This document shows, piece by piece, positions 1,588-21,576 of a DNA stretch of 25,908 bases. This DNA comes from a virus. The stretch lies in IMG/VR virus record IMGVR_UViG_3300044695_001836, positions 1-25,908 of that record; one strand, 5' to 3'. The notes below the pieces were generated by a model that was not told where the DNA came from, made no database searches, and worked only from the letters and a program-made list of their open reading frames with translations. The position numbers were made by a program, and so were the translations under genes. How positions within the stretch are numbered: the first letter of the stretch is position 1; each line of letters starts with the position of its first letter.

Positions 1588-3270
1588 ATGACGCAGCAAG
1601 TAATTAACGTGGGCACAGTGGCCGGGGACAACACTGGCGATCCCGGTCGTACTGCGTTTCAGAAAGTAAACAGCAATTTTAACGAGCTTTACACCGCAAA
1701 CACCCTTGCACAAATCACCAACGTAAAAGCATATGGCGCGATTGGTGATGGGGTGACGGATGATACAGTTGCCATTCAAGCGGCAATTGACGCAAACCAA
1801 AACAGCACAATCATTTTTCCGCCGGGAACCTATAAGTGTTCAAGTGCAATTTTGTTGACCGATACATCTGGTCACAATTTTCAAGGACAACTAATTGGAT
1901 TAAAAGCCACCATCACGTTTACGCATTCAACCTTGAGCACTGCCGCTGACAAAGACATGGCGCATGGGTTTCAAGCGTTTCCGCTCACGAATGGAGTCGG
2001 CGGCGACATCACTGGAATGCGCGGCGTTCTCATCCAAGGCTTGACCATCAACTGCCCGACAAACGGCTGCGGAATTTATTTGGCGAATTGCCAGCGAACG
2101 TCGATTATCCAATGCATATTTGTTGGTGGCCGGTACAACGTCGTTGAAGAATGCTGCATCAACACGGTTCACGACCGCTGTTACTTTTCCCAGTTCATCA
2201 ACGCGGGCTTAGGGCTGTTAATGACCAACGACACCGCCCGCGTTTGGTATGGGTCTGCGACTCCTACGTCAACTTACTGGAACGATTCTCCCCAAATTAG
2301 CAATAACGGGTTTGCGACTGACGTTGCCAACGGAATTTTGGCGATGATTCTTGACTACGGGTCACAATCAGAAAGCATCCGAAACGTGACCAACTGTTAT
2401 TTATACAGCGGCACAAACGCGCAAACCCAGTACGGGATCTTAGGCAGAAACTGCAACTACAACATTCAATCAAGTTGGTTTGAGAACATCAATTATCCCG
2501 TAAGATTTTTGATGACCAACGCTAATGAAGGTGGCAGCAGCACGACGATTACAGGCGTCACCGCCGCTCAACCTAACGGGACTTATACTGTCGGCGCGTT
2601 TCCAGATGGATTTAGTTATACCGCCAGAATCAACAACAATCACAGCAACCGAGCAGTCACCGATTACGACGTAAGCGGCGTTAATGGGCCGTGTTTCATT
2701 GGCCAAAACATTTCTTACCTGTCATCTGGCACCTTTCTGAAAAGTTTACAGGCAGGCAGTCAAAGAATTGTTGATGGCGGAAACTCGCTAATCAGTTCTT
2801 CTGGAACTTACAAAAATCTCACCTACAACCAATATGTGCATTGGTATATTGGCGACACGACTGGAACGGCGAATGCTCTCGCGGGAGACATCGGGCAGTA
2901 CATTGAGTCAAACATTGCGGCAGGAAGCGCGGTTGCACTAACTACCGCGACGACAGCCTCAATCACCAGCATTAGTTTGACTGCTGGTGACTGGGAAGTG
3001 TGGGGCACCGGGGCGTTTGCTTTCACTGGCGCGACTGCCGGGTATTTGCAAAGCGGCATTTCTACGTCAGCTGGTACATTTTTAACCACGCGATACAACA
3101 CGCAAGTGACGCCGGTTTCTGCCATCGGCACCATCACAAATAGCTATTCACTTCCCCGCAATCGTTTTCAACTAGCCACCACAACGACAATCTATTTGTT
3201 GCACTTCGCCACGTTTTCGGCAGGCTCGGTTGCCGGGTTCGGTGTGCTTTCGGCAAGGCGCATCCGGTGA
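1588..3270 (+). CDS. Tailspike with beta-helix (pectate-lyase-like) domain
   Basis: A 560-residue receptor-binding or polysaccharide-degrading spike. The N-terminus (VINVGTVAGDNTGDPGR, then FQKVNSNFNELY) is a short segment common at the start of phage tail proteins, probably the virion anchor. Residues 46-60 (VKAYGAIGDGVTDDT) are the typical entry into a right-handed parallel beta-helix of the Pectate_lyase_3/GH28 kind. The body is rich in N, G, T and S, as expected for helix coils, and the C-terminus (from about residue 440) looks like a beta-rich trimer cap. Catalytic residues cannot be assigned by eye. GGAG at 1575-1578 serves the ATG, which abuts the terminase stop. Base composition is visibly lower in G+C than its neighbours, and its place between terminase and portal is unusual. 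Both fit an exchangeable host-range module. Confidence 0.85.
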   Translation: MTQQVINVGTVAGDNTGDPGRTAFQKVNSNFNELYTANTLAQITNVKAYGAIGDGVTDDTVAIQAAIDANQNSTIIFPPGTYKCSSAILLTDTSGHNFQGQLIGLKATITFTHSTLSTAADKDMAHGFQAFPLTNGVGGDITGMRGVLIQGLTINCPTNGCGIYLANCQRTSIIQCIFVGGRYNVVEECCINTVHDRCYFSQFINAGLGLLMTNDTARVWYGSATPTSTYWNDSPQISNNGFATDVANGILAMILDYGSQSESIRNVTNCYLYSGTNAQTQYGILGRNCNYNIQSSWFENINYPVRFLMTNANEGGSSTTITGVTAAQPNGTYTVGAFPDGFSYTARINNNHSNRAVTDYDVSGVNGPCFIGQNISYLSSGTFLKSLQAGSQRIVDGGNSLISSSGTYKNLTYNQYVHWYIGDTTGTANALAGDIGQYIESNIAAGSAVALTTATTASITSISLTAGDWEVWGTGAFAFTGATAGYLQSGISTSAGTFLTTRYNTQVTPVSAIGTITNSYSLPRNRFQLATTTTIYLLHFATFSAGSVAGFGVLSARRIR

Positions 3271-7750: not shown

Positions 7751-8722
7751 ATGGCTGGTCAGATTTGGGCTGTTAACTCGCTGGGTGGCTACATGTACAG
7801 CCGTCAGCTTTCCAACGTGCTGCGTGCCAACGTGCAGCCGCTTGTTAAATTCCGTCAGTTCGCCGACGTCCATGACATCAGTCAGCAGGGCAAAAAGAAG
7901 GGCGACTTGTTCACTTGGGACGTTTTCTCTGACGTCGCCACTGCCGGTCAGGTGCTGGTTGAAACCAACACCATGCCGGAAACCAACTTCACGATTGTCC
8001 AGGGCACGCTCACGATTACCGAAGCCGGTAACTCGGTTCCGTATTCCGGCAAGCTCGACAACCTGTCGAAGTTCCCGATCGAAGACGTTATCAAGAAGGT
8101 TCTGAAGAACGACTGCGTCAAGTACCTTGACCGTGGTGCTTGGACCCAGTTCAACCAGACTCTTCTGCGCGTGATTGCGTCGAGCGGCACCGATACTGCT
8201 GCCATCCAGCTGTACACCAACGGCACCGTGACCGGCACCAACAGCATTGCCTTGAACAACGGCCACGTGAAGTCGATCGTCGACACCATGAAAGAGCGCA
8301 ACATCCCGGCGTATATCGCTGACGATTACTACGCTATCGCGTGGCCGACGACTCTGCGCACGTTCAAGAACAACCTTGAAACCATCCACCAGTATTCTGA
8401 CACTGGTTTCGCGTTGATCATGAACGGTGAAATCGGGCGTTACGAGAACACCCGGTTCATTGAGCAGACCAACATTGCCAAGGGCACGGGTACTGACGGC
8501 ATCACCACGAGTGCGTGGACCAACGGCAAATCGGACTGGTGTTTCTTCTTTGGTAACGACACGGTAGCCGAAGCTATCGCGGTTCCGGAAGAAATGCGCG
8601 GGAAGATTCCGACCGATTACGGTCGAAGCAAGGGTATCGCGTGGTATTACCTCGGCGGTTTCGGCATCGTCCACACGCTTGCCGTCAATTGCCGGATCGT
8701 GAAATGGGACTCGGCGGCCTAA
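7751..8722 (+). CDS. Major capsid protein
   Basis: A 323-residue coat protein, probably with the HK97 fold and closest in style to the N4 gp56/P22 gp5 group. Family-like features are the N-terminal SRQLSNVLRANVQPLVKFRQ segment, VPYSGKLDNLSKFPIEDVI (an E-loop or spine-helix style region) and NGEIGRYENTRFIEQT at residues 225-240, where 'GEIG...RFIE' is typical. A near-perfect Shine-Dalgarno (TAGGAGG, 7737-7743) seven bases before the ATG fits very high expression. The gene lies just after the scaffold and before two or three small head genes. A strikingly long open frame on the opposite strand reflects its regular codon pattern and is not a second gene. Confidence 0.88.
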   Translation: MAGQIWAVNSLGGYMYSRQLSNVLRANVQPLVKFRQFADVHDISQQGKKKGDLFTWDVFSDVATAGQVLVETNTMPETNFTIVQGTLTITEAGNSVPYSGKLDNLSKFPIEDVIKKVLKNDCVKYLDRGAWTQFNQTLLRVIASSGTDTAAIQLYTNGTVTGTNSIALNNGHVKSIVDTMKERNIPAYIADDYYAIAWPTTLRTFKNNLETIHQYSDTGFALIMNGEIGRYENTRFIEQTNIAKGTGTDGITTSAWTNGKSDWCFFFGNDTVAEAIAVPEEMRGKIPTDYGRSKGIAWYYLGGFGIVHTLAVNCRIVKWDSAA

Positions 8723-9278: not shown

Positions 9279-9761
9279 ATGCCGAAAATTAATCAGCCTG
9301 GTCGGAAGCAGTACGAAACTCCGCAAATTACGCAGGAATCGTTGGGCACTCAGACCTACGGCGACATGGCTCCGACCATGCAGGACATCATCAAGTCGGC
9401 GAATGCCCGTGGGCAGTCCCGTCATGAGATGAAACGCGCCGAAGTTGCGGATATTGATGTGTTGCCGGACTCGGCGATGATGGCCCGCAACGAAATGGTG
9501 GGCGTTCGTGACAACGGTTATCTGGCCAAAAAGGGTTTGATGTACGGCGTCAACGCTATGTACAACACGCTCCCGCCGGGTTCCGACATTGAAGACCAAG
9601 AGCTTTGCGACATTCGCGAAATGCGCATGTCGTCTTACGAGGGCGGTCTGGGTTATCCCGGCGACGGTTGGGTTCTTCGTGGCGAAGGCAGCCAGATGCC
9701 TAACACCAAGGACATGGGCCGTCCTGAGATGACCAACAAAGTCGGCAGCGCCAAAATCTAA
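9279..9761 (+). CDS. Small head-region protein, DIEDQE paralogue A
   Basis: A 160-residue soluble protein of unknown function. It carries NTLPPGSDIEDQELCDIREM at residues 96-115, which matches 15 of 20 residues in the next gene; both proteins also begin MPK. The two are therefore tandem paralogues that have otherwise diverged. The N-terminal third is Q, T and P-rich and looks flexible. AAGGAG just upstream serves the ATG, and the gap from the previous gene is 10 bases. The location between head and tail genes fits a minor virion protein or head completion factor. No known family was recognised. Confidence 0.72.
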   Translation: MPKINQPGRKQYETPQITQESLGTQTYGDMAPTMQDIIKSANARGQSRHEMKRAEVADIDVLPDSAMMARNEMVGVRDNGYLAKKGLMYGVNAMYNTLPPGSDIEDQELCDIREMRMSSYEGGLGYPGDGWVLRGEGSQMPNTKDMGRPEMTNKVGSAKI

Positions 9762-10001
9762 GGGGAACCAGCCATGCCAAAGGTAGTACAGGAAAAATTC
9801 CAAGTAACTCTCCCGTATTCTCCGGAGGGTCATGGCTGGGTAACTTCTGAGGAAGCGCGAGGGAAAAAGGGAATGCCGGGGCGAGAACGTCGTCCCGGCG
9901 GTGATTACGAAGCCAAACACAGCATGAACAACGTGTTCATGAATTCCCTGCCGCCGGGCATGGACATTGAAGATCAGGAGTTTAGTGACATCCGTCGCAT
10001 G
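9564..10001 (+). repeat. Repeated 20-residue LPPG-DIEDQE coding motif (two copies)
   Basis: The two copies lie at 9564-9623 and 9942-10001, in adjacent genes and in frame. At protein level 15 of 20 residues are identical (N, LPPG, DIEDQE, DIR and M conserved). At DNA level the copies differ at many third positions, so the protein sequence has been kept under selection and this is not a recent copy. Confidence 0.8.
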
Positions 10002-10208
10002 GGCATCAACACGGCTGGCAATATGCCGACCATGTATGCCGATGGAGACGTTACTAACTTTGAAGTCAACAAAGATTCGCTTTGCTACGGTTTCGACAAA
10101 AAACCGTTGTTGCAGACGGATGATGAATACACTCGCGACCATAACGACGCTTTCTATGATGACGTTGGCGGGTTCGTAGAGCGCAACAATTATTTGGATC
10201 GGATGTAA
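9774..10208 (+). CDS. Small head-region protein, DIEDQE paralogue B
   Basis: A 144-residue protein, partner of the preceding gene: NSLPPGMDIEDQEFSDIRRM at residues 57-76 aligns without gaps to that protein. After the shared motif it has an acidic, aromatic C-terminal region (DDEYTRDHNDAFYDDVGGF) that paralogue A lacks. It starts MPKVVQ and has an AAGGGGA ribosome site about ten bases upstream. It is the last gene before the terminator at 10268-10295, so it closes the head-gene transcript. Function is unknown. Low similarity outside the motif means duplication was old, or the motif is a shared binding element. Confidence 0.72.
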   Translation: MPKVVQEKFQVTLPYSPEGHGWVTSEEARGKKGMPGRERRPGGDYEAKHSMNNVFMNSLPPGMDIEDQEFSDIRRMGINTAGNMPTMYADGDVTNFEVNKDSLCYGFDKKPLLQTDDEYTRDHNDAFYDDVGGFVERNNYLDRM

Positions 10209-10240: not shown

Positions 10241-10268
10241 TTGATAGAGTTTTCTCCCGTTGTACACT
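10241..10268 (+). promoter_or_regulatory. Possible sigma-70-type promoter
   Basis: TTGATA (10241-10246) and TACACT (10263-10268) are 16 bases apart, matching five of six and four of six consensus bases. Transcription would begin at about 10275, inside the terminator hairpin, so the new transcript would lack most of the 5' arm and escape termination. It would explain how the tail block is expressed after a terminator, but the match is weak. Confidence 0.3.
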
Positions 10269-10295
10269 GCCCCACTTAGGTGGGGTATTTTTTTT
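10268..10295 (+). terminator. Intrinsic terminator after head genes
   Basis: The six-pair stem CCCCAC (10270-10275)/GTGGGG (10280-10285) has a four-base TTAG loop and can extend by a G-T and a T-A pair. It is followed by TATTTTTTTT (10286-10295). It lies about 60 bases after the stop of the last head gene and just before the methyltransferase-GT9 gene. Confidence 0.88.
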
Positions 10296-10310: not shown

Positions 10311-11966
10311 ATGACCTGGAGAGATACGGACCCGCAAGGGAACGAAATCGGAAAGATTACTTGGGAGCTGGTGCGCTGGACTCGGGGACGCGTACTTGAT
10401 GTCGGATGCGGGCGCAATAAGGGTTTCCCGCATTTCATTGGCCTAGACAACGGTATCGACCGTCAAATGTTTGGCATTGATGTGAAGCCAGACATTTGGA
10501 TTGAAGACGCGGCGGACTTAAAGCTGTTCAACAGCGGGGCATATGATGCCGTGCTGTCTTCTCATCTGCTTGAACACATTCCGTTAGAGAACGTCCCGGC
10601 CTGTCTTAAGGAATGGTGGCGCGTGCTCAAGGTGGGCGGTTATCTGGTGCTCTATCTGCCGCATGAGGATTTATATCCCAAGGTAGGTGAGGTTGGGGCC
10701 AATAAAGACCACAAATGGAACGTGAGCGAGCAGCTCGTGATCAGCATGATGCGCGAGGTCGGAAGCTGGGATTTGCGCGTGTGTGATAAGCGCGATCAAG
10801 GCATGGAATACAGCCTGTTTGCGGTTTTTCAAAAGTTAGCAGAGCCAGATCCTACGCTAGACCGCGCCTATGAATGGCGGTTCAGTCACCAGCTGCCAAA
10901 GCCTGAGAAGACCGCAGCAGTTGTCCGGTATGGCGCTTACGGCGACATCATCCAAGCGTCTAGCGTGATTGCGGGACTCAAGAAAGAGGGTTACCACGTT
11001 ACGGTGTTTTGCTCTCCGCCGGGGTCGGATGTTTTGCTACACGATCCAAACGTTGACGACTTTTACTATCAGGACCGTGACCAAGTACCCAACGCACAGC
11101 TGTCTCTGTTCTGGGACTGGCACGCGAAGAAGTACGACCGCTGGATCAACCTGTCCGAATCGGCGGAGGGAACGCTGTTACCGATTCCGGGCCGATTCAT
11201 GCACCAAGCAGCGCCAGCTCTCCGTCACAAGATGACAAACCACAATTATCTGTGGTTCCAGCACGCATACGCTGGAGTGCCTCACCGGCCAGCGATGAAG
11301 TTTTTCCCGACAGAAGACGAAGTGCTGTGGGCAAAAGCAGAGCGGGCCAAGATGGGCCAGTTCGTCATTGTCTGGTCGCTGGCCGGGTCGTCTGTGCACA
11401 AAGTGTGGCCTTGGGTCGATAACATCATTGCGCGATTGATGCTGGAGTTCACGGACGTCCATGTGGTGCTTGTCGGCGGTGATGCCGGAATTATCTTGGA
11501 GCAGGGTTGGTTCCAGCCTAATGAACAAGGCGCACCAATCCGCCACGGCAAGTTCAAGGTCCAGACAGAGCCTCGCGTGAGGCCTATGTGCGGGGACTGG
11601 TCCATCCGCCAAACCATGTCATTCTGCTTGCAGGCCGATATGGTCGTGGGGCCGGAGACTGGTGTATTGAACGCGGTGGCTCATGAGCAGATGGCCAAGG
11701 TTGTGTTGCTGTCGCATTCAACGGTGGAGAATCTCACGCGTGATTGGGAGAACACCAAATCCTTGTGGGCCAAGGCTACGAACTGCCCAGGGCGCGGCAA
11801 AAACGAGGCTCCGGCGTGCCACCAGCTGCATTACAACTGGGACCATTGCCAGCAGGCTGTTGGAGAAGATGGACAGCCGATGGGGATTGCACAGTGTCAG
11901 GCAGAAATCACTGCTGATATGGCATACGATGCGATTGCGCCGATTGTCAGGAGACGCATGAAATGA
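10311..11966 (+). CDS. Fused SAM methyltransferase and GT9-family glycosyltransferase
   Basis: A 551-residue two-domain enzyme. Residues 1 to about 185 are a class I methyltransferase: VLDVGCG (28-34, SAM-binding motif I), AYDAVLSSHLLEHI (motif II region) and LKVGGYLVLYLPHED. Residues from about 200 resemble glycosyltransferase family 9 (ADP-heptose:LPS heptosyltransferase): RYGAYGD at 206-212, VIVWSLAGSS, VVLVGGDAGI and a nucleotide-sugar-site stretch GPETGVLNAVAH from 447. I chose ATG 10311, after the terminator, with a nine-G tract (10298-10306) as the only ribosome-site-like sequence; the open TTG at 10260 would lie before the terminator. The stop overlaps the next ATG (ATGA). A likely role is building or altering a glycan, such as host LPS or a glycosylated virion protein; the substrate is unknown. 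A fusion within the virion operon is notable. Confidence 0.82.
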   Translation: MTWRDTDPQGNEIGKITWELVRWTRGRVLDVGCGRNKGFPHFIGLDNGIDRQMFGIDVKPDIWIEDAADLKLFNSGAYDAVLSSHLLEHIPLENVPACLKEWWRVLKVGGYLVLYLPHEDLYPKVGEVGANKDHKWNVSEQLVISMMREVGSWDLRVCDKRDQGMEYSLFAVFQKLAEPDPTLDRAYEWRFSHQLPKPEKTAAVVRYGAYGDIIQASSVIAGLKKEGYHVTVFCSPPGSDVLLHDPNVDDFYYQDRDQVPNAQLSLFWDWHAKKYDRWINLSESAEGTLLPIPGRFMHQAAPALRHKMTNHNYLWFQHAYAGVPHRPAMKFFPTEDEVLWAKAERAKMGQFVIVWSLAGSSVHKVWPWVDNIIARLMLEFTDVHVVLVGGDAGIILEQGWFQPNEQGAPIRHGKFKVQTEPRVRPMCGDWSIRQTMSFCLQADMVVGPETGVLNAVAHEQMAKVVLLSHSTVENLTRDWENTKSLWAKATNCPGRGKNEAPACHQLHYNWDHCQQAVGEDGQPMGIAQCQAEITADMAYDAIAPIVRRRMK

Positions 11967-12946
11967 GCACGAGCGGCACTTACACGTTCACGGTTACCCG
12001 TGATGACATCATTCGCGAGGCGATGCTAAACATCGGCAAGCTGGATGCGTACGGCTCAATCGATCCGCAGGAAACCACCGACTGCGCTCGAAAGCTGAAC
12101 ATGATGTGCAAACAGTGGATGGGCCGCTACGACTTCGCGAGCGGGCTAAAAATCTGGACCCGGCAGCGGGCCGACTTGTTTTTGTCGTCCAGCAAGTACC
12201 AATACGGTCTTGGCCCGTCAGGAGATAACTGGGCGGCGGGCGTCACGGCATTGCCGGGTCAAAACTTTGCCACCAACAACACCAGCGTCTATGCCGCTGC
12301 TGCGGCGACGAGCCTGTTATTCACAAGCACCAGCCAGTTTACGGCTGGGGACTATGTGGTCATCCAGCTGTCCACCGGAGACATTCAAAGCACGACTGTA
12401 GCCACGGTGGCATCTGGCAGCATCACGTTGAATGCGGCGCTGACAGCGGCTGTGAACCAAGGCGCGTACGTTTGGAACTACACCACGAAAGGCCAACGAC
12501 CTCTTGAGATTGTCACGGCCATTCTGCGCGACTCCTTCAGCACCGATACGCCATTGGATTACATGACGATCGAGACGTACGAGGCGCTGCCGACCAAGAC
12601 GCAGCCCAATTACGTTACAGATCCGACCGCCATTTACTATGAAGCGCAGTTAACCAACGGCCAGCTGTACATTGACTGTGGCGGTGCTCAGGACGTTACA
12701 AAGCACATTCATATTGTTTATCTGCGACCGGTGCAAGATTTCGACAACGCTCTTGATAATCCGGAATATCCCCAAGAGTGGTTCAATGCGTTGTGCTGGG
12801 GATTGAGCAAGCAAATCTGTCCGATGTTCAACGCAGTTTGGACGCCAGAAATGAACAGCAATTATCAGGAAGCGATTAGCTACGCTCGGGAAGCAAACCC
12901 GGACCGCACTGAAATTTACTTTCAGCCCAATCAGTATTCGCCATGA
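11963..12946 (+). CDS. Tail accessory factor, P22 gp4-like (probable)
   Basis: A 327-residue protein, probably the first ring added below the portal. The N-terminal helical part (DDIIREAMLNIGKLDAYGSI, then ARKLNMMCKQWMGR) and the C-terminal part (HIVYLRPVQDFDNALDNPEY, then EWFNALCWGLSKQICPMF) resemble the helix-rich connector proteins of P22-type and related tails. Residues of about 100-172 form a T, A, S and V-rich insertion that looks like an extra beta domain. The protein is therefore about twice the length of P22 gp4 (166 residues). ATG overlaps the stop of the GT9 gene, and its own stop overlaps the gp10-like start. The call rests on pattern plus the directly following gp10-like gene; a T7 gp11-type adaptor is the main alternative. 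Confidence 0.68.
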   Translation: MSTSGTYTFTVTRDDIIREAMLNIGKLDAYGSIDPQETTDCARKLNMMCKQWMGRYDFASGLKIWTRQRADLFLSSSKYQYGLGPSGDNWAAGVTALPGQNFATNNTSVYAAAAATSLLFTSTSQFTAGDYVVIQLSTGDIQSTTVATVASGSITLNAALTAAVNQGAYVWNYTTKGQRPLEIVTAILRDSFSTDTPLDYMTIETYEALPTKTQPNYVTDPTAIYYEAQLTNGQLYIDCGGAQDVTKHIHIVYLRPVQDFDNALDNPEYPQEWFNALCWGLSKQICPMFNAVWTPEMNSNYQEAISYAREANPDRTEIYFQPNQYSP

Positions 12947-14376
12947 GAGTTTATCCGCTGTTCGGTAATGGGATGGCGGGCCACTCGTATCCGGTGACCC
13001 GGCAGCGGCGCGTGAACGTGTATTTTGAAAATCGGCCAGACGGCGATAAGACCAACGTGGCGGTTTTCGGTACGCCAGGACTAACCACCAAGTTCACACT
13101 GGGTGGCGTATCGCGTGGCGTGCTCGGAACTGAAGCTGCTCTTTACAACGTAATCTCTAATACGTTCTACAGACTCAATTCTAGTGGTTCAACGGTAGCC
13201 AGCGCGACGATAAACAGCTTCATCGGCAACGTTGCTATGGCTAACGATTCAAACCAAGTCCTGATCGTGGACGGTGTGAACGGTTACGAGTTCAACACAT
13301 CGACTAACACGTTGACGGAGGTGACGGGCGGATTCCCAAACGGAGCCAAAACTTGCACGTTCGTTTCCAGTTATTTCGTAGCAGAACTACCCGGCTCGCA
13401 AAAATTCTTTGTCTCTGACACGTTCGACGCCTCAACTTGGAATGGCTTATCGTTTGCCAGCGCCAGTGCGTACACCGACAACATCGTGGCTGTGGATGCG
13501 TTGATCGGTAATCTGGTGATCTTCAGCCAGCGCCACATTGAGTTCTGGCAGAACGTCGGCAACAGCCCGCAGCCATTCGCCCCAATCTTATCGGCCACCT
13601 CTGAATATGGAATTAATGCCATTTGGTCGCGGGCGCATGCGGGGTCGACAATCTTGTTTCTTGCGCAAAACCCACAAGGAACCAGTCAGGTTTGTCAGAT
13701 TTCCGGTTACAGCGTGTCGGTAGTTTCGACTCCAGACCTTGAAGACGCCATCAATCAATTTTCGACCATTTCGGATGCGGTAGCGTTGTCGTATGTGATT
13801 AACGGGCACCCGATGTATCAGCTCACGTTTCCAACGGCGAACCGTTCGTTCTTGTACGACTTGAGCACGGGAATTTGGTCTGAAGTGCAGAGCGGGATAT
13901 CCGTGACGTATGCCCAGCGGCATCGAGGACAGTTTTCGACAACATTTCAAAATCAGGCTCTGATCACCGATGCCAGTAGCGGCAAAGTGTTTTTGATTGA
14001 CCAGAACAACTACACCGATGACGGCACCCAAGTTTTGCGGGAGATGGTTACGCGTCACGGCCAACAAGATCACAACGTCTTGAGCATTGCAGAGCTATAT
14101 TTGGACATGGAAACGGGCGTGGGAACCAATGTCGCATCCGGCAACAACGCGGCCACGCCAAACCCGGTGATCACGCTGGAAGTGTCCAAGGACAACGGCA
14201 GAACATGGAACAATCCAAGGCTGTTGCAGATCGGAGCGCAGGGTAAATACCTCACGCGGGTTATTGCGCGGCGCTTTGGTTCTGCTCGGGATTTTGTGTT
14301 CCGGTTCCGCATGACAGACCCGGTAAAGTTTGTGGTGACCGAAGGCGCGGCAGTGGTGTCGGAGCGGCAGCAGTGA
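12943..14376 (+). CDS. Packaged-DNA stabilization protein, P22 gp10-like
   Basis: A 477-residue protein close in length to P22 gp10 (472 residues), the tail hub that closes the portal channel after packaging. Typical features are the N-terminus MRVYPLFGNGMAGHSYPVTR and QRRVNVYFENRP, then FGTPGL, followed by repeated beta-propeller-like strands including VVFSQRH-type blades (LVIFSQRHIEFWQNVG) and IWSRAHAGSTILFLAQNPQG. The C-terminus (VSKDNGRTWNNPRLLQIGAQ, then RFRMTDPVKFVV) is a pattern widely seen in this family. ATGA overlap at 12943-12946 couples it to the gp4-like gene, matching the expected order of assembly factors. Confidence 0.85.
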   Translation: MRVYPLFGNGMAGHSYPVTRQRRVNVYFENRPDGDKTNVAVFGTPGLTTKFTLGGVSRGVLGTEAALYNVISNTFYRLNSSGSTVASATINSFIGNVAMANDSNQVLIVDGVNGYEFNTSTNTLTEVTGGFPNGAKTCTFVSSYFVAELPGSQKFFVSDTFDASTWNGLSFASASAYTDNIVAVDALIGNLVIFSQRHIEFWQNVGNSPQPFAPILSATSEYGINAIWSRAHAGSTILFLAQNPQGTSQVCQISGYSVSVVSTPDLEDAINQFSTISDAVALSYVINGHPMYQLTFPTANRSFLYDLSTGIWSEVQSGISVTYAQRHRGQFSTTFQNQALITDASSGKVFLIDQNNYTDDGTQVLREMVTRHGQQDHNVLSIAELYLDMETGVGTNVASGNNAATPNPVITLEVSKDNGRTWNNPRLLQIGAQGKYLTRVIARRFGSARDFVFRFRMTDPVKFVVTEGAAVVSERQQ

Positions 14377-14970: not shown

Positions 14971-15516
14971 ATGAGAAATTTTCAGTTTGTGACGACTTTT
15001 GACCCGGTAACGTTGTTGCACCAAGTGCAGCGCAAGCCGGGTTTGTGGAACGAGAACACGTTGCGCACCACGCACGAAGCGACACCTCACAAACAGGTTG
15101 ACGACATCTGGGTGCGGTTTAACGACCTCAGCGAATACGAGCACAACCTTGTGGGCGTGATCGACGAGCACGAATCAATGTGGTATCCGCCAATCTACGA
15201 ACTGCCTGCGGTGCGTCCAATCGTGTTTGGCCTGATGGCTCGCGTTGAGGGTGAGCGTCTGGGCCGAGTGCTCATTACCAGACTGGCACCGGGCAAGGTC
15301 ATCACGCCACACGTAGACAGCGGAAGCCACGCCAGCTACTACGAGCGCTATCACTGCGTGCTGCAAGGCTTGCCGGGTTCTCTGTTCCGCTGCGGAGATG
15401 AGCAGATAACCATGCGAACAGGCGAAGTTTGGTGGTTCAACAACGCCATCGAGCATGAGGTAATCAACAACTCGACCGATGACCGCATTCACCTGATAGT
15501 TGATATCCGATGCTGA
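14971..15516 (+). CDS. Aspartyl/asparaginyl beta-hydroxylase-type 2OG-Fe(II) oxygenase
   Basis: A 181-residue oxygenase-like protein. The facial triad is visible as HxD (H114, D116 in ITPHVDSG) and H162 (in NAIEHEVINN), with R172 in DRIHLIVDIR as the probable 2-oxoglutarate-binding arginine. The spacing and the strings RYHCVLQG, MRTGEVWWF and IEHEVINNSTDDRIHL match the Asp/Asn hydroxylase (Asp_Arg_Hydrox) family. Such enzymes hydroxylate Asp, Asn or Arg side chains or small substrates, using 2-oxoglutarate and O2. It sits four bases after the jelly-roll gene and overlaps the GNAT gene. Its target could be a virion protein, but nothing in the sequence identifies it. All key residues are present, so activity is plausible. 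Confidence 0.85.
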   Translation: MRNFQFVTTFDPVTLLHQVQRKPGLWNENTLRTTHEATPHKQVDDIWVRFNDLSEYEHNLVGVIDEHESMWYPPIYELPAVRPIVFGLMARVEGERLGRVLITRLAPGKVITPHVDSGSHASYYERYHCVLQGLPGSLFRCGDEQITMRTGEVWWFNNAIEHEVINNSTDDRIHLIVDIRC

Positions 15517-15965
15517 CGCTACAGGTCGAGTCATTCACCGAGCTGCTGGACGAACTTAAGCCGCTGTTGCCGCTCCACTGGAAAGAACTGGCGCTGGACA
15601 AGGACAAGGTGCCACTAGACCCGCAGTTCGACGTCTACATCCGGCGCGAGGCCGCAGGCGAGGTCATGATGGTAACCGCTCGGCAGGACGGCAGGCTGGC
15701 CGGGTACTTCATCGGGTTCGTGGCGCCAGGACTGCACTACAAAACATGCCTAACGCTGATCATGGATATTTTCTTCATCCATCCAGATTCCCGGAATGGT
15801 TTCGCAGGCATAAAGCTGTTCAAGGCTGTTGAGAAAGAGGCAAGACGCAGGGGCGTTCAACGGATCATCGTTGGGAGCAAAATGCACGCAGACGCATCGA
15901 TATTGTTTGAGCGTTTAAGTTATTCGCCGGTCGAGACGTATTACTCGAAATGGATAGGAGGCTGA
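15510..15965 (+). CDS. GNAT-family acetyltransferase-like protein
   Basis: A 151-residue protein with the GNAT core: beta strand DIFFIHPDSRNGFAGIKLFK (motif A with the acetyl-CoA loop SRNGFAG near residues 97-103), the following helix AVEKEARRRGVQRIIVG and the C-terminal FERLSYSPVETYYSKW. GNAT proteins move an acetyl group from acetyl-CoA to an amine. Related GNAT-like proteins are encoded in podovirus tail regions, and a purely structural role is also possible. The start overlaps the hydroxylase gene by seven bases and the stop is one base before the ejection protein ATG, so the gene is embedded in the tail operon. The loop lacks one of the usual glycines, so catalytic competence is uncertain. 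Confidence 0.8.
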   Translation: MLTLQVESFTELLDELKPLLPLHWKELALDKDKVPLDPQFDVYIRREAAGEVMMVTARQDGRLAGYFIGFVAPGLHYKTCLTLIMDIFFIHPDSRNGFAGIKLFKAVEKEARRRGVQRIIVGSKMHADASILFERLSYSPVETYYSKWIGG

Positions 15966-18239: not shown

Positions 18240-20257
18240 AACTCCCGGAAGGTTTTTCACTGGAGCCACCATCTGGGCAAGGTTTGCAATTGCCGGAAGG
18301 GTTCACGCTTGAAGCGCCAGCGGGGCCGATGAGTGCTTTCAATGAGCCATTACAAGCACAACCACGTTCCGGCGTTTTGGGTGGCGCTCTGGACATTGCT
18401 CAGGGCGTGGCTGAAGTGCCTATGTCAATGGTTACTGGATTGGGCGCATCGGTTGTTGGTGGCGCTAGAGGAATACAAAACGTGTTGTCTGGGTACGGGC
18501 CGGAACAATCCGCAAAAACTGTGGAAGAAACGCAGCAGCGGTACACGTATCAGCCTCGAGGGGCTGTCGGTCAGGCGTTACTGTCCGACATTGGCAAAGT
18601 GTTTTCTTACGGAAACATCCCCGGCGAGAAATTGGCCGAAGCTGGTTATCCCGGCGCGGGAGCCGCAGTAACTGGCGCAATCCAAACGGCTCCGATGCTG
18701 ATTGCACCAGAAGCTCGTGCGGCTGTGGTGAATGCTGGCAAGGGGATTGCCACAACTGCAAAGGCTATCCCCGGTCGCCTTGCAGAGAGCACCATGAGAG
18801 GCCCCATCGGGCGACAGATTGGCGCGGTAGGCAATGTCGGTCAGGCAGGCCCGACTGGTGCGGCTGGCGGTGCAGGCGGCGGCGGTCGCCGTCTCGGAAT
18901 GATGTCACCAGAAGCGCGAGCGTTGCGTCAGATTGCCACGGAGTTACGACGCGAATTCCCAAACGAAACCCCGGCGGAATTGGCGACCAGAATGACAACG
19001 ATGTCGCAGCTTTCTGGCGGCGAGGCCAGAGTGGCTGACGTTGTTGGTCGTGACCTCTTGGACTTGGTTGCATCATTGCCTGGCGAAACGCCGAAAGGAT
19101 GGTTTGATGTTAGAACCGCCCGAATCGCAGGAAGGCCAGAACGATTAGATCCTGTCGTTGACGCATTGTCTCGTGGCGCTGGTCGAGCGGGAGACGTTGA
19201 GGCCGGTTTGGTGGCTTCTCAACGGTTAAACGCGGGGCCTTTGTATGAGCAGCTGCACAGCATGTCGATCGCAGCCACTCCAGACTTGACCGGAATTTTG
19301 CAATCAATGCGGCAACTTGGGGCGGTAAAAAATGCAGAAAGAATTGCCACTGCTGAACAACGTCCGTTGACCGTGACCGAGCGATATTTAGACGATGCAC
19401 AGCAAGCTGGGATTGCTGAACCGCTGTCGATGCGCGACCTTGATTTAGTCAAGCGCGGCATGGATGACGCCATTAACGCAGCCAAAAAAGACAACCCAAC
19501 GTTGGCTCGTTCAATGATTGAACTGAACAATCGGTTCAAAAGCGAGCTAGACAATTTAACCGGCGATTTGTATCTAGACGCCAGAAATGCGTTTTCCGGG
19601 CCGGCCAGCATTCGCACTGCGATTGAGGAAGGCAGAAACCTTTGGTCTGGCACTGCCGAAGATGTCCGCAGCACGATGCGGAACATGACAGAGTCGGAAA
19701 AGCAGGGTTTCCGAGTTGGCGCGGCTGAAGCGTTTCGAGAAAAAATTGGCACTCAACGCGGGCAGACTCAGATTCTTGACCTATGGAAAGACCGAACGCT
19801 TAGAGAACGTCTGCAAGCTGTTTTCGGAACGAGGGCAGAATTTGAACAAGCGGCAAACTTGATTGCAAACGAACGCAAACTCAAAGACCTTGAATCAGTT
19901 GCGATGAACAGCAAGACCTTCGCGCGTGAAGCAAGGGCGGATGATGCAGCGCTTCAAACAATCGCTGACATGCACGAGCTTGGAAAGGTTGTGGCCGGTG
20001 GTCGATGGGATCAGGCGGTGCAATGGATGGTGCAGAATAAATCTAGGCTCACGATGCCAGAATCAGTCAGGAACAAAATAGGTGAATTTTTGTTGAGCAG
20101 AGATCCAGGCGTGTTCACCGCTATTGAATCGGCAATGACTCAGGCGGCGAGAGCGCGGGCACAACGCTCGCAGGCGGCCAGAGCAACCACTAGAGCAGCA
20201 TTGACAGCCCCAGCTGCGCAGACTTTGCAGACTGTGCCGGGTTACGGTACGCCATGA
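18221..20257 (+). CDS. DNA ejection protein 3 (large internal virion protein)
   Basis: A 678-residue protein, in the size range of P22 gp16 (609 residues). The N-terminus has two copies of LPEGF-[ST]-LE-[PA]-P (residues 8-19 and 24-35), followed by a glycine/alanine-rich, partly hydrophobic region (GLGASVVGGARG and GAGAAVTGAIQTAPMLIAP). The rest is a long R, A, E and L-rich helical region ending in an A-rich tail. ATG 18221 lies inside the end of the previous gene with GAGGTGG just upstream; the spacing is short, so a start at the nearby ATG 18305-18330 region cannot be fully excluded but would remove the repeats. The stop overlaps the ATP-grasp ATG (ATGA). Confidence 0.72.
   Translation: MAADELKLPEGFSLEPPSGQGLQLPEGFTLEAPAGPMSAFNEPLQAQPRSGVLGGALDIAQGVAEVPMSMVTGLGASVVGGARGIQNVLSGYGPEQSAKTVEETQQRYTYQPRGAVGQALLSDIGKVFSYGNIPGEKLAEAGYPGAGAAVTGAIQTAPMLIAPEARAAVVNAGKGIATTAKAIPGRLAESTMRGPIGRQIGAVGNVGQAGPTGAAGGAGGGGRRLGMMSPEARALRQIATELRREFPNETPAELATRMTTMSQLSGGEARVADVVGRDLLDLVASLPGETPKGWFDVRTARIAGRPERLDPVVDALSRGAGRAGDVEAGLVASQRLNAGPLYEQLHSMSIAATPDLTGILQSMRQLGAVKNAERIATAEQRPLTVTERYLDDAQQAGIAEPLSMRDLDLVKRGMDDAINAAKKDNPTLARSMIELNNRFKSELDNLTGDLYLDARNAFSGPASIRTAIEEGRNLWSGTAEDVRSTMRNMTESEKQGFRVGAAEAFREKIGTQRGQTQILDLWKDRTLRERLQAVFGTRAEFEQAANLIANERKLKDLESVAMNSKTFAREARADDAALQTIADMHELGKVVAGGRWDQAVQWMVQNKSRLTMPESVRNKIGEFLLSRDPGVFTAIESAMTQAARARAQRSQAARATTRAALTAPAAQTLQTVPGYGTP
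18242..18325 (+). repeat. Two-copy LPEGFxLE peptide repeat
   Basis: Codons for residues 8-19 (18242-18277) and 24-35 (18290-18325) of the large ejection protein encode LPEGFSLEPPSG and LPEGFTLEAPAG, offset by 16 residues. The repeat is at the extreme N-terminus and looks like a short linear binding or packaging element. Confidence 0.75.
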
Positions 20258-21576
20258 AAATCCTAGTCCTTGAGCACGAAGACGCCGGCTGCGGATTGGA
20301 TTTCGTTCTGCGCTGCGTGTCTGCCGGCCATCAAGTGCGCTACTGGCTCTCACCAGACGCTTCACCGCACATTGGCCAAGGCTTCAAGGGCATTGAGTTC
20401 ATCAAGAACTGGACCGGCAGCGCCAAGTGGGCCGACCTCGTGTTCTGCACCGGTAACGAAAAGTACATTGACCGGCTAGAGTTTTTCCGCAAGCAGGGCG
20501 TGGCCGTGTTCGCACCGTCAGTGCAGTCCGCACGGCTGGAAATAGACCGAGCCTACGGGATGAAGTTCTTGGACGACCACGGCATCGAGTGTCCAGAGCA
20601 CCAGACGTTCAAGACGCTGGCCGACGCCGAGAAGTTTGCGAGGAAATCCGACGAGCGTTATGTGTTCAAGACGCTTGGCAGTGAGGAGGACAAGAGCCTG
20701 TCCTACTGCGCCAAATCGCCTGCCGACCTTGTGGCGCGTCTCCAGCGCTGGCAGCGTATGGGGATGGTCCTAAAGGGACCGTGCATGTTGCAGAAGTTTA
20801 TCCCTGGCATTGAGTTCGCTGTGTCGGCGTGGATGGGCAAGGATGGTTTCATTGGGTTGCCTAACGAGAACTTTGAGCACAAGAAGTTACTCAGCGGGAA
20901 CTGCGGCCCAAACTGCGGTGAGGCTGGGACAGTGATGAAGTATTGCAACGACTCAACGTTGTTTGAAGAAGTGATGAAGCCCCTCGAGGAGTCGCTCGTT
21001 AAGCTGGGCCACTTTGGTGGCATTGACGTCAACTGCATCATCGACGAGGACGGTAAAGCGTGGCCGCTGGAGTTTACTGCGCGTCCGGGCTGGCCTGCGT
21101 TCAACATCATGATGGCGACGACCAAGGGAGATCCTGCGGGATGGATGCGCGACGCTTGCTATGGCGAGGATTCCTTGGAAGTCAGCACGGCTATTGCGGT
21201 TGGCGTGGTCGTGGCGCAACCGGACTATCCGTACAGCAAGGCGACGCAGAAGGAAGTGATCGACATTCCGATTTATGGCGTGACCGCAAAGAACCGTCGC
21301 TTCATTGCGCCTCAGAGCGTCAAAATGGCGACGATGCCGGACATGGACGACGATGAGCTGGTGGAGCGCGAAATGTGGGCCACTGCTGGTGATTACCTGT
21401 GCGTTGTCACAGGCACAGGACGCAGCATCAAGCAGGCATCAGAGCGTGCTTATAAAGTCGTCGACGATTTGCACATCTCAGACATGATCTACAGAGACGA
21501 CATCGGCGAAAAAATTGAAGATGAATTGCCGACGCTGCAAGAACATGGATACGCAACAGAGTTTGAATACGAGTAA
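20254..21576 (+). CDS. PurD-like ATP-grasp enzyme
   Basis: A 440-residue ATP-grasp protein resembling phosphoribosylamine-glycine ligase (GARS, PurD), which joins glycine to phosphoribosylamine using ATP in purine synthesis. Matching stretches are RLEIDRAYGMKFLDDHGI, CMLQKFIPGIEFAVSAW, GPNCGEAGTVMKY and GIDVNCIID. LEFTARPGWPAFN carries E273 and R277, with D258 and N260 before it, as in the ATP/Mg site. The length fits PurD, but the N-terminus (MKILVLEHEDAGCG) lacks the usual GGREHA motif, so the amine-substrate domain has changed and the substrate may be different. No other purine gene is nearby; it lies between the last ejection gene and the tail fibre. It overlaps the former as ATGA. A peptide- or glycan-modifying ligase is an alternative. 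Confidence 0.8.
   Translation: MKILVLEHEDAGCGLDFVLRCVSAGHQVRYWLSPDASPHIGQGFKGIEFIKNWTGSAKWADLVFCTGNEKYIDRLEFFRKQGVAVFAPSVQSARLEIDRAYGMKFLDDHGIECPEHQTFKTLADAEKFARKSDERYVFKTLGSEEDKSLSYCAKSPADLVARLQRWQRMGMVLKGPCMLQKFIPGIEFAVSAWMGKDGFIGLPNENFEHKKLLSGNCGPNCGEAGTVMKYCNDSTLFEEVMKPLEESLVKLGHFGGIDVNCIIDEDGKAWPLEFTARPGWPAFNIMMATTKGDPAGWMRDACYGEDSLEVSTAIAVGVVVAQPDYPYSKATQKEVIDIPIYGVTAKNRRFIAPQSVKMATMPDMDDDELVEREMWATAGDYLCVVTGTGRSIKQASERAYKVVDDLHISDMIYRDDIGEKIEDELPTLQEHGYATEFEYE

Follow-up and report, generated by a model that had tools for sequence, protein, structure and literature searches.

A conserved methyltransferase–glycosyltransferase fusion gene in the virion operon of putative uncultured podophages

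Gene content of the locus

The window, i.e. the whole stretch of DNA analysed here, comprises positions 1 to 25,908 of the viral record IMGVR_UViG_3300044695_001836. Between its head genes and its neck and tail genes, in agreement with the tail-operon location given in the initial annotation, lies a gene with a stop-free translation of 551 amino acids plus a stop codon (Table 1). The motifs VLDVGCG, GAYGD and GPETG, which had been assigned to a single reading frame, are all present in this translation. A G-rich, SD-like run precedes the ATG, and the stop codon overlaps the start of the following gene as ATGA, the coupling noted earlier.

The following gene, previously called gp4-like, models as a podophage portal-tail adaptor (pLDDT 85.6) with Foldseek matches to the portal-tail complexes of cyanophage A4 (1.5e-5), Moo19 and N4, besides short matches to tailspike structures. 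The third gene had been described as gp10-like and falls into the PHROG family of head closure Hc3. Upstream, a terminator-like hairpin with altered stems recurs in 13 loci out of 109, counting the window, versus 0.7% of random stretches. It separates the head genes from the fusion gene, which is therefore probably the first gene of a neck/tail transcription unit.

The window also contains a pectate-lyase-like tailspike gene (1588-3270), directly after the terminase gene, and two adjoining small genes (9279-10208, 160 and 144 aa) with a common ...SLPPG.DIEDQE... motif. The cluster of the latter is found in 104 loci and has no PHROG match.

Table 1. Features of the fusion gene and its neighbours, with positions in the window.
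Feature	Position	Strand	Basis
Major head protein, upstream head module	7751..8722	+	phrog_1357, 8.5e-19
Intrinsic-terminator-like hairpin with T-run, between head genes and fusion gene	10268..10287	+	conserved within the subclade of the window
MT-GT9 fusion gene, 551 aa	10311..11966	+	translation, conservation, AlphaFold2 model, Foldseek
N-terminal class I SAM-dependent methyltransferase domain, residues 1-182	10311..10856	+	Methyltransf_11, Foldseek
Motif I VLDVGCG, residues 28-34	10392-10412	+	sequence motif
C-terminal GT-B glycosyltransferase domain, GT9 type, residues 195-551	10893..11963	+	Foldseek, PF01075 in relatives, hhalign
GAYGD, residues 208-212; D212 pairs with catalytic Asp13 of WaaF/WaaC	10932..10946	+	invariance and alignment
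K364 in SSVHKxW, pairs with conserved Lys of WaaF KRWP (K195)	11400..11402	+	invariance and alignment
GPETG, residues 447-451; E449 replaces Asp of the GT9 motif (D)SG/(D)TG	11649..11663	+	invariance and alignment
Four-cysteine segment C492, C503, C513, C529, possible metal knuckle	11784..11897	+	conservation
Portal-tail adaptor (gp4 slot), inserted beta domain	11963..12946	+	AlphaFold, Foldseek
gp10-like head closure Hc3	12943..14376	+	phrog_578, 3e-92

Methyltransferase and glycosyltransferase domains

The methyltransferase (MT) half matches the Pfam profile Methyltransf_11 over residues 29-114 (2.8e-10; 41.1 bits against a curated cut-off of 21.2), as do all 44 fusion relatives scanned. Foldseek matches of this half are the class I methyltransferases 6mro, 3e23 and 3dli. 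Profile match above the cut-off, motif I and predicted class I fold together place it among the class I SAM-dependent methyltransferases. In a set of 48 non-redundant sequences (minimum pairwise identity 48%), which is the conservation set for both halves, the invariant residues of the MT half include G32, G34, D46, H85, E88 and H89.

For the glycosyltransferase (GT) half, Pfam scans of the window protein and of the whole window gave no match to PF01075 (Glyco_transf_9), a profile matched by 15 of the 44 fusion relatives (best 5.7e-9). The PDB sequence search resulted in a weak GT9 match only for the whole-protein profile (3tov, E 1.3) and in no match for the GT half alone, so that a fold search and a profile-profile alignment were needed. 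AlphaFold2 on the family alignment yielded a confident model of the fusion protein (mean pLDDT 91.6, pTM 0.88), for which Foldseek listed GT9 structures first (3tov 6.2e-12, WaaF 1psw 8.7e-10, 6dfe 5.1e-7), with WaaC and TibC also among the matches. In the hhalign comparison with Escherichia coli K-12 WaaF/WaaC/WaaQ, 251 columns align colinearly (single-comparison E=4.4e-6, probability 87%); D212 falls opposite the Asp of GxxGD, K364 opposite the Lys of KRWP and E449 opposite the Asp of DSG. Invariant in the conservation set are G208, A209, G211 and D212 of GAYGD, G447, E449, T450 and G451 of GPETG, K364, and the cysteines C492, C503 and C513; C529 is present in 46 of the 48 sequences and falls into a gap in the other two.

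Glu449 and Asn454 are invariant at positions where E. coli GT9 enzymes have Asp and His, a motif drawn from four E. coli paralogues that may not represent the whole family. Because of these two replacements the sugar donor may differ from that of canonical GT9 enzymes; the sugar is therefore not taken to be heptose, and we call the domain GT9-type, after its modelled fold, rather than a proven GT9 member. The substitutions would bear on donor identity more than on fold.

The proposed fusion of a methyltransferase to a GT9-type glycosyltransferase is thereby borne out by the Pfam match of the MT half, the predicted GT9 fold and its recurrence in relatives. An earlier concern, that structure prediction might reveal a missing SAM or nucleotide-sugar pocket in one of the halves, did not materialise, and both halves fold confidently. 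Values of dN/dS between 0.01 and 0.10 in both halves indicate strong purifying selection on each, and this, together with the invariant pocket and catalytic residues, argues for two working enzymes in one protein.

Occurrence and gene order in related viruses

The fusion query retrieved 142 viral relatives, 80 of which were kept, and the GT-half query at least 582. Among 115 distinct related contigs, 99 possess the full fusion, ten have separate MT and GT genes, five are cut upstream of the GT by the contig end, and in one (L078) the fusion had been missed by the gene caller and was found whole by tblastn. Identity of the fusion ranges from 48 to 100% among dozens of independent metagenome contigs. 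The split genes (MT 172-192 aa, GT 354-361 aa) share one operon, usually with one or two small genes between them; in most split loci these are two small conserved genes, c23 (~88 aa) and c24 (~71 aa), e.g. L124:4726-4989 and the preceding gene.

No record of INPHARED (50,697 records) matches the fusion, the split GT has no match in the phage collection searched, and the GT half none in the plasmid collection searched. A single bacterial contig with the fusion was detected in an Acidobacteriaceae MAG (L083); since it is 6.3 kb long and probably viral, it provides a weak host hint. Literature searches for MT-GT fusions in phages turned up nothing on point. The MT-GT9 fusion is real and conserved and, as far as these searches show, not described in the literature.

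Gene order downstream of the fusion is nearly constant. The adaptor gene directly follows the GT in 90 of 99 contigs, with gp10/Hc3 next in 86, and the GT-adaptor junction is most often a 4-nt overlap (31) or a zero gap (23). In a search led by the adaptor, 50 of 56 loci have MT and GT upstream, and the other six end at a contig edge; many of the 56 are contigs already in the fusion set. Judged from this gene order, the fusion appears to be a near-fixed part of the virion-building operon in a lineage of uncultured short-tailed phages (podophages), and the MT and GT pair looks like a core gene of this lineage. Distances of MT, GT, adaptor and capsid correlate similarly (r 0.65-0.74), as expected for vertical inheritance, and therefore single out no acceptor.

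Linked sugar genes and candidate acceptors

Characterised TylF-type O-methyltransferases methylate a macrolide sugar. Fifteen contigs have a gene of this type, in most cases immediately 5' of the fusion gene (PF05711, 1e-11 to 2e-16 in the three tested), and in contig L149 a GT2, the TylF-type and the fusion gene are arranged consecutively. The podophage ctkAd229 (MW202691) has a 425-aa protein combining a GT-A-like domain with a methyltransferase, encoded just before its gp4-type gene; the GT-A call comes from reading of the sequence and weak matches, and the Pfam methyltransferase matches are below curated cut-offs. A glycan that is both made and methylated by the virion operon is favoured, because MT and GT remain linked when split, a gene of the TylF type (once along with a GT2) often lies just upstream, and ctkAd229 has an unrelated GT and MT combination in the same slot. 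A joint GT and MT pathway is likely on this gene-order evidence.

Genes for a nucleotidyltransferase (PF00483) or an NDP-sugar epimerase (PF01370) were not detected in 20 related contigs, so the nucleotide-sugar donor is probably made by the host. In many relatives, the stretch from the head genes to the fusion gene encodes variable Gly/Ser/Thr-rich proteins of ~350-900 aa. These highly variable appendage proteins share the N-terminus MSYDLPVRRSQ... (e.g. L102:2851-4149, L023:4980-7679). Together with the adaptor they may be regarded as candidate acceptors.

Proposed function and alternatives

A methyl-capped sugar, placed either on a virion protein or on the surface of the host, is the probable product of the fusion protein. 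Our main reading, with a probability of about one half, is that of a late-made two-domain enzyme whose GT9-type half glycosylates, and whose MT half O-methylates that glycan, on a virion protein of the same operon. The enzyme would be made late, along with the neck and tail proteins. Its GT9-type domain would transfer a sugar from a host-made nucleotide-sugar to the virion protein, and the MT domain would then methylate the same glycan, probably at a hydroxyl group. As acceptor, the adjacent adaptor would be most likely, or else the variable Ser/Thr/Gly-rich appendage proteins whose genes lie shortly before the fusion gene in many relatives. A bolder version, to which we attach limited credence, sees a "glycosylate-and-cap" enzyme in a single polypeptide, dedicated to the portal-tail adaptor or the neighbouring appendage proteins. 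It would be a phage counterpart of the bacterial protein heptosyltransferases, and its gene would belong to the core set of a large lineage of uncultured podophages.

Gene position alone fits a virion substrate and a late-made host-surface substrate alike. Most GT9 enzymes with an established activity work on the LPS core, as do WaaF and WaaC of E. coli, which are soluble enzymes. The main alternative is accordingly that the fusion enzyme alters LPS or another surface glycan of the host late in infection, adding and capping a sugar, and so blocks superinfection or re-adsorption of progeny to debris and infected cells. It draws on the solubility of WaaF and WaaC, on the closeness of the GT half to both in predicted fold, and on the pectate-lyase-like tailspikes encoded by the window and by contig L119, which are consistent with glycan receptors. 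We nevertheless consider it less likely, because the near-fixed partner of the gene is the adaptor gene rather than a lysis or conversion gene, an enzyme expressed late has little time to remodel the envelope, and the NDP-sugar synthesis genes named above were not detected in the 20 contigs tested.

Less probable still, the two domains may act on different substrates, e.g. a protein side chain for the MT and a glycan for the GT, and be fused just for co-expression or scaffolding. The NCBIfam matches of the MT domain are all far below the family cut-offs and thus give no substrate assignment, and the halves also occur as separate genes, both of which would suit such an arrangement; the constant co-occurrence of MT and GT and the adjoining sugar-type TylF methyltransferase and GT2 genes speak against it. 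That the protein is itself a virion component, situated in the neck or ejected, with enzyme folds inactive or used for binding, appears very improbable: its gene does lie within the structural module, directly ahead of the adaptor gene, but invariance over ~50% divergence extends to the glycines of motif I, to D212, K364 and E449, and to three cysteines out of four, and dN/dS is low in both catalytic domains. An assembly fusion or a chance open frame, the former raised in the initial annotation, is ruled out by the recurrence of the fusion across many samples and assemblies, in 99 distinct contigs altogether, and by their divergent DNA (dS up to ~2). A role in DNA modification was set aside, as no nucleotide-hypermodification genes were noticed nearby in an unsystematic look.

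Phage genes for sugar modification tend to be classed as auxiliary genes of scattered occurrence. In the present case a GT9-type transferase and a methyltransferase form a near-fixed part of the virion module, in a podophage lineage present in many metagenome samples and in none of the INPHARED records. If the virion is what is modified, methyl-capped protein glycans would be a standard part of these particles, which bears on adsorption, particle stability and host defence, and the adaptor linkage offers a concrete candidate acceptor.

Comparison with known systems

With WaaF and WaaC (PF01075) the fusion protein shares the predicted GT-B fold, the Asp of GxxGD, a Lys before WP and the nucleotide-binding (D/E)(S/T)G motif. 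It differs from them in the N-terminal methyltransferase, in Glu for the motif Asp and Asn for the following His, in the four-Cys C-terminal segment and in its location in a phage virion operon.

The BAHT protein heptosyltransferase TibC (PDB 4rap/4rb4) is a GT9-like enzyme acting on protein, in which four C-terminal cysteines bind iron and are needed for activity (PMC4358343). The GT9-like catalytic fold and four conserved C-terminal cysteines are common to both proteins, whereas the cysteine spacing differs (339/342/358/370 in TibC, 492/503/513/529 in the fusion), a methyltransferase takes the place of the N-terminal beta-barrel, and no autotransporter is encoded next door. Because of the spacing and the absent beta-barrel, the fusion is not filed as a BAHT member.

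For actinobacteriophages such as Maravista, phage-encoded glycosyltransferases have been proposed to act on capsid protein (PMC11256854). The glycosyltransferase is phage-encoded in both cases, and in the present one its gene lies within the virion operon; hosts and morphology differ, the enzyme here is GT9-type and MT-fused, and virion glycosylation is putative.

In the ctkAd229 protein a GT and an MT are likewise joined, and its gene immediately precedes a gp4-type tail accessory gene and gp10. Unlike the window fusion, this protein has the reversed domain order, a GT-A-like rather than a GT-B domain, and weak family support. Uncultured Caudovirales also encode RfaF-like or family-9 glycosyltransferases (BFVD A0A6J7WHE7 and A0A6J5PAN8) with the GT9 fold (Foldseek 6.8e-14 and 1.6e-6), but these are listed at ~300 aa, too short for an extra MT half.

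Further genes of the window

A GNAT-type acetyltransferase gene (15510-15965; phrog_1249, PF00583) is located between the gp10-like and the DNA-ejection genes; in MW202796 a GNAT gene likewise follows the stabilization protein. The tail region contains a gene for a PurD/GARS-like ATP-grasp protein (20254-21576; PF02843 5e-11, PF01071 7e-7), which adjoins a tail-fibre-like gene and belongs to a cluster of seven members among the loci examined.
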